Shown: positions 1,015-18,591 of the stretch, piece after piece
How positions within the stretch are numbered: the first letter of the stretch is position 1
Layout of the letters: every line of letters begins with the position of its first letter
NCBI GenBank assembly: GCA_018333655.1
Contig: JAGXTJ010000032.1
Location: 1-64,000 of the forward strand
Direction: 5' to 3'
DNA: 64,000 nucleotides
Source of the DNA: Bacillota bacterium
GTDB lineage: Bacteria; Bacillota; UBA994
Position numbers and translations under genes: made by a program
Notes under the pieces: generated by a model
Databases searched by the model: none
What the model saw: the letters and a program-made list of their open reading frames with translations, nothing else
What the model was told of the DNA's origin: nothing

Positions 1015-2353
1015 GTGAGCACGTTGGCTAAACATAAACACTTAACGAACGAAGACCGTAGTCAATTAGAGCATCTACTCCGGGGAAGGAGGTCCATCAA
1101 ATCCATAGCCCGTGTCCTTGGGAAAAGTCCCTCGACTATCGCGAGAGAAATTAAACAACACGCAGTCCAAAGCAACAAGTCCGCTCCTGGCCGTATCGCC
1201 AATCGCTGTCTCCATAGAAGAAACTGCTCAAAGTACTACCTCTGCGAGGACAAACCAAATTGCAAGAAGCAGCGATGTAGCACCTGCTCCCTGTGCAACC
1301 TTGTTTGCCCAGAGTTCGACGAAGAGCATTGTCAGCGCTTAGCCTTACCGCCTTATGTATGCAATGGCTGCGAAAGTGAGCCCAAGTGCACTCTCAAAAA
1401 GCGGTATTACCTGCACAGGCATGCCCAAACCGCCTATGCAGCGAAGCTGGTCGATTCCCGAGCTGGGGCAAACATTTCGGAAGAAGAGCTCTACCGCATG
1501 GATCAATTCATCAGCCCCTTGATCAAAAAAGGGCAGTCCGTTTATCACATTTTAATCAATAACCCCGATGAATTCACCTGCAGTGGAAAGACTATCTACC
1601 GCTATATCAACAGCAGCCTCTTGTCGGCCCGCAACATTGACCTGCCTAGGGTATGCCGACTTAAGCCGCGCAAGTCCAAGCCGCTCCAACATAAAGTGGA
1701 CAGGCAGTGTAGACATGAGCGCTCGTACGAAGACTTCCATGCGTTTCTAGAGCGCAACCCAGATACCGCTGTCGTTGAAATCGACACCGTCGAGGGGAAA
1801 AAGGGCGGCAGCGTTCTCCTCACCATCCATTTCAGAAACTGCGGACTGATGCTTGCTTTTCTGCGAAGTCGCAATACGTCGCAGTCTGTCATTGATGTTT
1901 TTCGAAGACTGCTCGCGATTCTGGGTAAAGAGTCTTTCCAGAGACTTTTCCCCGTGATCCTCACGGACAATGGCTCGGAGTTTTCCAACCCTTTGTCTCT
2001 GGAAACGGCGGAGGATGGCACCCGCATCACTTCGATCTTCTACTGTGACCCATCCTCACCCTACCAAAAACCTGCCATTGAAAATAACCATGAGTTCATC
2101 CGCCGTATTCTTCCTAAAGGCAGTAGCTTTGATGAGTTAACTCAATCCGATATCGACCAGATGATGAGTCACATCAACTCGTATAGCAGGGAAAAGCTAA
2201 ACGATAAGGTAATTTCAGTGTTCATTGAAATTACCTAAGTCACCCTACGAATCGTTTAGCTTCTTCTACGGTCAAGCTATTCTTGACCGGTTGGGTGTAT
2301 CGTCCATTCCACCGAACGAAATTCTTTTGCGCCCAACCCTGCTAAAACGGTAA
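1015..2353 (+). pseudogene. IS30-family transposase, frameshifted near the 3' end
   Basis: The N-terminus (HLTNEDRSQLEHLL, then SIKSIARVLGKSPSTIAREI) is the IS30 helix-turn-helix region. A cysteine-rich segment follows, and the C-terminal half carries the DDE core: VVEIDTVEGKKGG, LTDNGSEF and ENNHEFIRRILPKGSSFDEL. The annotated frame starts with GTG 1015; a TTG at 1024 has a better-spaced GAGGCGG ahead of it. Translation now stops at 2238, but codons 2240-2353 in another frame encode SPYESFSFFYGQAIL and the rest of a typical IS30 tail ending LLKR. The break is caused by a 31-nt insertion (2209-2239). Loss of the last 37 residues leaves the DDE residues intact, so residual activity cannot be excluded. 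Confidence 0.88.
2205..2239. repeat. 27-nt palindromic insertion with 4-nt duplication inside the transposase
   Basis: Insert 2209-2235 is an inverted repeat (GTAATTTCA ... TGAAATTAC with a short loop), flanked by TAAG at 2205-2208 and again at 2236-2239. Removing the insert plus one TAAG (31 nt) restores the IS30 reading frame exactly, so the pre-insertion sequence can be read directly. The size is far below known autonomous elements; it resembles a minimal MITE or a hairpin-templated duplication. Confidence 0.75.
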
Positions 2354-4789: not shown

Positions 4790-4864
4790 CTGAATCACGG
4801 AGAACCGTCCCTGGCGCGTCAGCTGAATCACGGAGAACCGTCCCTGGCGCGTCAGGTGAATCAC
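4790..4864. repeat. 33-bp tandem repeat (two copies plus partial) of the AACCGTCCC family
   Basis: Two identical 33-bp units (4790-4822, 4823-4855), each containing TGAATCACGGAGAACCGTCC, are followed by a partial third (GTGAATCAC, 4856-4864) that overlaps the methyltransferase stop. The core GGGACGGTTCTCCGTGATTC on the minus strand recurs with variation at 18527-18591, 43597-43629 and 58754-58768. The tandem lies between the methyltransferase and helicase genes. Confidence 0.85.
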
Positions 4865-5595
4865 TTCCGGGCGGCGAGCTGGACACGGGTGCTGCCAGGG
4901 TGTGGTGGGTTGGTGGTAAGAAAGTCATAGGACACGGTGTGGGTGAAGCCCACGCTTTGGACTAGCTGCTCTAGCTCTGCTGGCACGAAGTAGGTCTGGC
5001 GATGGACTTCGTCAAAGCGTGTCCATGCGGTGGAGCTACTCTTTATGAACCCCGTCAGGCGGTGGGTAATAAGGGTGTCGTTCACTCTGACTTGCCAAAA
5101 ATAGCAGCTTTTTTCGCCGATGCGGTTGTATTCTGGGCGCGCCAAAAACCCGGCCAATCTGGCTGGGCCATGGACATCAAACAAGAGCAATCCCCCTGGC
5201 TTAAGGAGGGAGCAAGCACCAGAGAGAAATGTGCGGAGCTCTTTCTCGTTGCGCAAGTAATTTACGGCATCACAGGCAGCGATGATGAGGTCAAAAGGGC
5301 CTAGTGTGGCGGGCAGTTGGCGCATGTCGAGCAGCATGAAGCTGACCGCCGTGTTACCACGCAATTTCTGCTCTGCTTGGGTAAGCATTTCGGACGACAG
5401 ATCAGAGGCCGTGATGCGGTGTCCACCCTTGACCATCTCTAAGGTGAGATTCCCTGTGCCGCAGCCAATCTCAAGTATCGACTGGCCTTCTGAAATGGCA
5501 AAAGTGGCACGCAAGTAGTGCCACCACGCCGCATAGTCGAGGTGATTCATCCAGTCATCATAAACAAGGGCCAAAGAAGTATAGGCGGTGGTCAT
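4861..5595 (-). CDS. Class I SAM-dependent methyltransferase
   Basis: A Rossmann-type methyltransferase of 244 aa. The SAM-binding motif I is ILEIGCGTGNLTLEM (near residue 41), followed by the acidic motif ITASDLSSEML, motif LLDMRQLP, and LLKPGGLLLFDVHG after strand 4. The N-terminal YTSLALVYDDWMNHLDYAAW is characteristic of the methyltransferases that follow rsfS in many Firmicutes. The substrate is unknown. ATG 5595 overlaps the rsfS stop as ATGA, implying translational coupling; an upstream in-frame ATG would lie inside rsfS. Confidence 0.85.
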   Translation of the reverse strand: MTTAYTSLALVYDDWMNHLDYAAWWHYLRATFAISEGQSILEIGCGTGNLTLEMVKGGHRITASDLSSEMLTQAEQKLRGNTAVSFMLLDMRQLPATLGPFDLIIAACDAVNYLRNEKELRTFLSGACSLLKPGGLLLFDVHGPARLAGFLARPEYNRIGEKSCYFWQVRVNDTLITHRLTGFIKSSSTAWTRFDEVHRQTYFVPAELEQLVQSVGFTHTVSYDFLTTNPPHPGSTRVQLAARK

Positions 5596-18526: not shown

Positions 18527-18591
18527 GCGACAGAGGGGACGGTTCGTTTTGTCGGTCGTTTTGCGACAAAACGAACCGTCCCCTCTGTCGC
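18527..18591. repeat. 28-bp perfect inverted repeat between minD and minE
   Basis: Arms 18527-18554 and 18564-18591 are exact complements around a 9-nt loop, with the family core GGGACGGTTCGTTTTGTCG in each arm. There is no trailing T-run, so it is not a standard terminator, though the RNA hairpin would be very stable and could separate minD and minE expression. It belongs to the dispersed AACCGTCCC repeats seen elsewhere in the window. Confidence 0.9.

Follow-up and report, generated by a model that had tools for sequence, protein, structure and literature searches.

A 27-nt hairpin within an IS30-type transposase gene of a Bacillota bacterium, probably one copy of a dispersed family of very short mobile hairpins

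The interrupted IS30 transposase gene and its hairpin

We have analysed a stretch of DNA of 64,000 nt, hereafter the window, from a Bacillota bacterium of the lineage UBA994 (assembly GCA_018333655.1, contig JAGXTJ010000032.1, positions 1 to 64,000 of the forward strand). The source genome (G000) has 2.2 Mb and is a draft of 57 contigs, which are numbered with C in the following, the window contig being C32. Near the beginning of the window lies an IS30 family transposase gene, which is enclosed by a perfect 14-nt inverted repeat (left arm at 993 to 1006 on the forward strand, right arm at 2367 to 2380 on the reverse strand), presumed to represent the ends of the IS30 element. The main part of the gene (1015 to 2238, forward strand) matched NF033563 (transpos_IS30, 5e-32) and HTH_38 (5.6e-13) and is truncated by a frameshift. 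Just upstream of the element, at 897 to 928, we also observed a perfect palindrome of 16 + 16 nt, which consists mostly of C and G runs (CCCCCTACCCCCCCCA/TGGGGGGGGTAGGGGG) and, by eye, is flanked on both sides by TGCGTTTAGTT.

The frameshift coincides with positions 2205 to 2239, which read TAAG, a 27-nt hairpin and again TAAG. The left TAAG (2205 to 2208) and the right TAAG (2236 to 2239) are the presumed two copies of a 4-nt target duplication, and the hairpin between them, GTAATTTCAGTGTTCATTGAAATTACC, occupies 2209 to 2235 on the forward strand, which is also the orientation of its family. This arrangement, proposed in a preliminary description of the window, can be read directly from the sequence. 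The stem is longer by two pairs than described there, with 11 bp in total: the 5' arm AGGTAATTTCA (11 nt, 2207 to 2217) starts with two nucleotides of the left TAAG, the 3' arm TGAAATTACCT (2226 to 2236) ends with one nucleotide of the right TAAG, and between them lies an 8-nt loop GTGTTCAT (2218 to 2225), for which the family has GTGTTTAA and variants. The window copy carries matching changes in both arms, GGT..ACC instead of GGG..CCC. When 2185 to 2270 was folded as single-stranded DNA, the energy was -19 kcal/mol, compared with -5.67 (sd 2.26) for shuffled sequences (z -5.9; none of 200 as good). Part of this energy comes from an outer stem, a perfect inverted repeat of 12 bp within the IS30 coding sequence itself (left arm AAGCTAAACGAT, 2194 to 2205, forward strand; right arm ATCGTTTAGCTT, 2251 to 2262, reverse strand), whose 14-nt loop houses the hairpin. 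In 458,512 scanned bases, perfect inverted repeats with arms of 12 bp or more and a spacer no longer than 20 numbered 26, so that insertion into such a loop is unusual; this is a single case, spotted after the fact.

The main open reading frame (1015 to 2238) terminates inside the right TAAG, and the missing C-terminus is found in a different frame that is open at 2225 to 2353, where the displaced tail (2237 to 2353, forward strand) reads AAG, SPYES..LLKR and a stop codon. Residues 10 to 398 of the main part align to residues 1 to 389 of an IS30 transposase from Butyrivibrio (WP_139263702.1, 44% identity), and the tail KSPYES..LLKR aligns to residues 389 to 426 of the same protein (11 of 38 identical, E 1e-5). 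Both halves therefore claim K389, whose codon is the AAG of TAAG, so that omitting 31 nt leaves neither a gap nor an overlap, indicating a net insertion of 31 nt. Accordingly, the proposal that removal of 31 nt restores an uninterrupted tail of 37 residues (SPYES..LLKR) holds, with the two halves meeting at K389. A comparison with intact copies of this very IS had also been suggested. It could be made with WP_139263702.1, at 44% identity only, as a search of the source genome and seven relatives (E threshold 0.001) gave no further copy of this IS30.

Copies of the hairpin in the source genome and its relatives

A search of the source genome with the core pattern, allowing up to three mismatches, revealed 14 copies of the hairpin, whereas the reversed control pattern gave none. 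They lie at C3:8913; C11:1150, 1181 and 1212; C15:32437; C32:2211 (the window copy); C43:2629, 25215, 27886 and 28733; C48:5169; C53:22078; and C55:25413 and 25553. A longer pattern gave 10 matches per strand, compared with 1 per strand for its control, and a covariance model built from 17 copies, with 150 of its 398 first-look candidates scored, returned the same 14 places and nothing further at E up to 1. As the trio on C11 forms one tandem array with a period of 31, the 14 copies represent 12 places. The family consensus of the 27-nt unit is approximately GGAATTTCAGTGTTTAATGAAATTCCA. The lack of a second copy had been named beforehand as a point against an insertion; this check was run, and with 13 sister copies in the same genome the insertion claim is not refuted.

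Outside the source genome, 14 genomes were searched, and at E up to 0.001 four of them contain related hairpins (two matches in G003, one in G004, five in G005 and three in G006). Several of these keep the loop GTGTT with different stems that are still paired. The same threshold gave no match in 10 of the 15 genomes of the class that were covered, including both genomes of the same genus. An exact scan of genome_contigs, which may omit records of the window's own or very near genomes, gave three places, one of them the G006 locus (QLUS01000014.1, Bacillota HKB212) and the other two, in a Bacteroidota MAG and in Campylobacter, probably chance matches; the only place in viral_contigs is AT-rich and probably also due to chance. 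Matches with two mismatches at loci L034 and L035/L090 were not accepted as sure members, as they may be chance, and L090 overlaps an apparent start codon. Rfam reported no family for the hairpin at gathering score and only group II introns, at two of nine loci; on 701 bases around the window hairpin it gave two sub-threshold matches (E 0.49 and 0.58). A literature search by general terms found no published record of this hairpin.

Two further types of hairpin were observed on the way. G005:C57:1382-1534 (L033/L034) has two related-looking hairpins upstream of a thrS-like gene, in an apparent T-box leader; the leader and the gene were both named by eye. The window itself carries at 18527 to 18591 a 65-nt hairpin with perfect 28-bp arms (GCGACAGAGGGGACGGTTC..), and similar ones lie at L174:3080, L175:17640 and L186:2816; together they resemble a separate REP-type family.

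Nine of the 12 places in the source genome are within mobile elements, namely the IS30, two RAYT remnants, group II introns and ISNCY. The C15 copy lies in the last codons of a RAYT remnant, and the C48 copy lies beside a truncated RAYT. C55:25553 and C53:22078 are near matches to Rfam RF01999 (group II introns), and C55:25413 is further along the same intron as C55:25553, as seen in the alignment to L114 and L120. C43:2629 belongs to an ISNCY (NF033594, 2.3e-101), of which remnants are present at C43:28733 and C11; in the copies at C43:2629 and C11, the start codon follows the hairpin immediately. As for the remaining places, C43:27886 splits a reading frame, which reaches 673 residues when 31 nt are omitted (25, 28 or 34 nt do likewise by frame), and the 524-residue frame that reads through this hairpin had no Pfam match. 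C3:8913 and C43:25215 lie between listed open frames of at least 90 codons. Because the two copies at intron site A and the three ISNCY copies share their positions, they probably go back to one insertion each, which leaves nine independent events in the source genome. Two side observations concern these neighbourhoods: G004:C41 (L047:2900-3130) has a family hairpin behind the presumed terminal repeat and in front of the start codon of an IS5-type transposase gene (NCBIfam), a position as in ISNCY, and a second small palindrome, TGTGATTTCTCGGAAATCACA or near-identical, appears nested in the hairpins of the ISNCY remnants at L041:6610-6790 (C43:28733) and L042:1120-1180 (C11).

Hairpin-free sites, net length and rival explanations

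Homologous sequences without the hairpin were found for both intron sites. Site A measures 52 nt in both filled copies of the source genome and 21 nt in eight hairpin-free copies (four in G001, one each in G004 and G006, two in G007), and site B measures 50 nt in the source genome and 19 nt in two G007 copies. The net gain is thus exactly 31 nt at both sites. These copies are homologues in other genomes and not the same chromosomal locus. The alignment comprises 12 loci, two filled and ten from relatives, taken from 28 listed places: L129 and L133 were dropped as too diverged at the site, the partial intron matches L118, L122, L125, L126, L128 and L131 stop short of it, and the remaining places either match the hairpin itself or are further pieces of loci already aligned. 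When compared by blastn, two G001 intron copies gave a 27-nt gap in the query together with a 4-nt overlap in the subject. G006 was not counted at site B, since its copy (G006:C164; L146/L095) has a diverged hairpin there, with the same loop motif, next to rearranged sequence. By eye, an apparent reverse-transcriptase fragment is inverted directly behind this hairpin, which may mark a rearrangement breakpoint.

Other sites give the same or a similar length. The sole ISNCY relative found in 15 genomes (G014, 56% identity) has a leader that runs into the start codon without a hairpin, from which the net gain at this site is about 32, with AAATG on both sides. Because of this relative, we reject the hairpin as a fixed part of ISNCY. 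The C15 RAYT reads ..LETSH before the hairpin and ..AYQALQED behind it in another frame, as in intact RAYTs, which fits 31 nt; for this gene and for the IS30, the homologues are proteins, and the length comes from frame and residue count. At C48, TTGG stands on both sides, and omitting 31 nt opens the frame into the RAYT. The open-frame test, which fixes the length by frame only, speaks against 30 or 33 nt at the IS30 and C48, while 32 nt opens nearly the same length as 31; a stop codon lies nearby at the C15 RAYT, so the test says nothing on length there.

On the one hand, the 31 nt may consist of a 27-nt unit and a 4-nt target duplication. Exact flank repeats are present at three events, namely TAAG in the window, TTGG at C48 and the 5-nt AAATG at ISNCY. 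When ten events were compared in the register of the window copy (ISNCY omitted for its different length; one G006 and one G004 copy included), the flanks agreed at four of four positions in two events, at three in two, and at one or two in six. The summed matches in the best two of six registers were 24/40 vs 19.9 (p 0.049) and 21/40 vs 16.5 (p 0.032) for shuffled partners, uncorrected, and the other four registers gave p 0.34 to 0.87. Repeats of 4 nt at any of 49 offsets around 81 hairpins numbered 31 vs 15.5 expected from equal letters, a count that includes family copies and non-independent offsets and from which we draw no conclusion.

On the other hand, a Y1/HUH transposase (IS200/IS605 or RAYT type) may have inserted a 31-nt unit (GGGGAATTTCAGTGTTTAATGAAATTCCATT) in single-stranded form, with no target duplication and often just 3' of CTT; the TAAG repeat would then come partly from a likeness of the target to the element's own ends. 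By eye, CTT stands directly to the left of such a unit in six of ten independent events (the others having ATA in the window, GAA, TTT and GCT), and its right end is CATT or CATA in seven of ten, as if part of the element; in these counts ISNCY and the G004 copy are included and the G006 copy is omitted. The period of the C11 tandem is likewise 31, RAYT/Y1 matches exist in all eight genomes of the family (three in the source genome), and IS200/IS605 members are described in a passage of PMC2817692 as having neither terminal inverted repeats nor larger duplications. However, the exact TAAG, TTGG and AAATG repeats would all have to be coincidences. As for a RAYT as the moving enzyme, the source genome has two intact RAYTs, at C10:69199 and C5:8594, with no hairpin copy on either contig, for which reason we also reject the hairpin as a fixed part of a RAYT unit; three of the eight genomes (G001, G002 and G007) have RAYTs but no hairpin match, and the two RAYT remnants with copies appear interrupted rather than flanked. 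We consider single-strand insertion of a 31-nt unit possible but rather unlikely. Because the likeness of the flanks is largely common to the copies, both a 27-nt unit with a 4-nt duplication and a 31-nt unit beside a preferred site fit the data, and we lean towards the former, taking the 4-nt repeat as a true target duplication. The duplication that the preliminary description had proposed is therefore exact at the window copy, while as a rule of the family it is less firm, with flank sums barely above those of shuffled partners (p 0.03 and 0.05, uncorrected).

The preliminary description had offered a repair product as an alternative, in which a template switch at an inverted repeat made the hairpin in place. 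This would suit the position of the insertion in the 14-nt loop of the 12-bp inverted repeat and the matching changes in both arms, as arms can be homogenised by template switching (part of PMC8604942). However, the same 22-nt core occurs at 12 places in the source genome, where the flanks are mostly unrelated; this cannot be the work of a local event, so a one-off event is contradicted by the sister copies and we regard this origin as very improbable; the arms may still have been retouched later by template switching. A fixed regulatory or RNA element, such as an operator, an attenuator or a leader hairpin, could explain why the hairpin stands just before the transposase start codon in ISNCY and in the IS5-type element of G004. 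When six diverged relatives were added to the alignment, pairing changes on both sides also exceeded all 500 shuffles. We keep this as a hint only: the result leans towards pairing because a model that rewards pairing was the first to pick up three of the six diverged rows (the other three came from a pattern search), and the 17-row set without the six has no excess of pairing changes. The copies also break reading frames (IS30, C15 RAYT, C43 ORF), the hairpin is absent from homologous sites, and Rfam gave no family at gathering score, the window having only the two weak matches mentioned above, all of which makes a fixed element improbable. An assembly error or chimera at the window hairpin might be suspected in a draft of 57 contigs, but the insert differs from the other aligned copies by its changes in both arms, the junction is clean, the protein halves meet without loss, and the sister copies make an error at this spot unlikely; we judge it extremely improbable.

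The hairpins are dispersed over the genome, interrupt genes, are missing from homologous sites and add an exact net length at two of these. We are confident that they constitute a mobile family. The idea of a minimal non-autonomous element gains support from the 13 sister copies and from the two intron sites, where homologous copies without the hairpin are shorter by 31 nt. The window insert is thus probably one copy of a dispersed group of mobile hairpins that are very short and non-autonomous, and whose 27-nt unit lengthens the target by 31 nt.

Possible mechanism and comparison with known systems

The following steps would account for such a family. Each move may copy or carry the hairpin as a DNA unit, possibly single-stranded, with an enzyme supplied in trans that would recognise the stem and the GTGTT loop. 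A staggered cut of the target by about 4 nt and subsequent fill-in would duplicate TAAG at the window. The outcome there is a frameshift that removes the last 37 residues of the IS30 transposase. Copies already residing in ISNCY or a group II intron could then spread with their host element. Candidate enzymes are a Y1 transposase, for which the source genome has three matches, or some DDE enzyme. Changes in both arms of a stem, such as those of the window copy, may arise by template switching between the arms, a process described in parts of PMC8604942 and PMC8794818.

A single family arm reads GGGGAATTTCA with GTG. When 515,039 bases of the source genome (about 23%) were scanned for five half-patterns, every exact match belonged to a whole copy. 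As a tentative and unlikely reading, we also entertain that a small Bacillota lineage harbours minimal mobile DNA of a new class, a 27-nt hairpin that moves as a unit while its target is cut with a 4-nt stagger. Its length would hardly leave room for two separate end-binding sites of a transposase, so that a single enzyme complex would have to recognise the hairpin itself, by its stem and its GTGTT loop. Stems may then drift via template switching while staying paired, and only the loop would stay constant from genus to genus. As a further point against RAYTs, 6 of 14 readable RAYT loci (17 given, three without frame) have a different palindrome beside them, of the GGGACGG type. By eye, the 5' part of a UvrD-like helicase frame in the window (4790 to 4865) contains a tandem of TGAATCACGGAGAACCGTCCCTGGCGCGTCAG, which resembles these GGGACGG palindromes.

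The spread of hairpins of about 30 nt through bacterial genomes has, to our knowledge, yet to be explained. In the family described here, two sites have homologues lacking the hairpin, the net length is exactly 31 nt, a tandem repeats with that period, and the copies are few enough to be traced one by one. The 27-nt unit and its targets are direct material for testing the moving enzyme. With nine of 12 places in IS, RAYT or intron sequence, the family also shows how other mobile elements may come to be inactivated or modulated by short hairpins.

The hairpin is most likely a dispersed, mobile, non-autonomous element of the REP/SDR kind and not a repair accident. REPs are palindromes of 20-40 nt, sometimes in genes, which are thought to be moved in trans by Y1 transposases, according to passages of PMC3733652 and PMC2817692. 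Our hairpin resembles them as an imperfect palindrome within this size range that is dispersed in the genome, but differs in several respects. The GT(A/G)G head at the 5' foot of the stem was seen by eye in none of the 17 aligned copies, neither of the two intact RAYT genes, on C10 and C5, is flanked by two inverted copies, and the source genome has 14 copies, whereas REPs usually exceed 100 per genome (a passage of PMC2817692). Rickettsia palindromic elements share the insertion of palindromes into reading frames; however, as stated in an excerpt of PMC10969869, they measure about 150 bp and are inserted in frame, while our hairpin has 27-31 nt and shifts the frame. MITEs are similar in being dispersed and non-autonomous, with inverted repeats and possibly a short target duplication, and hairpin-free sites exist in relatives for our family (introns A and B). 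Unlike MITEs, the hairpin comprises 27-31 nt in all, and neither an autonomous parent nor, within the scanned 23% of the source genome, a solo arm was found.

The SDR5-type repeats of Elhai and colleagues are reportedly mobile units of a few tens of nucleotides with precise insertion. SDR5 and other small dispersed repeats of cyanobacteria are the closest idea, and the likeness lies in the very short mobile unit and its precise insertion. Such very small mobile repeats (Elhai et al. 2008) are referred to in a part of PMC4390886, where SDR5 is said to insert within HIP1 sites, whereas our family, in another phylum, is often found beside CTT or with a 4-nt repeat. Compared with SDR-type repeats by description rather than by sequence, the hairpin is likewise a unit of a few tens of nucleotides that is inserted precisely, with a net gain of 31 nt at intron sites A and B.
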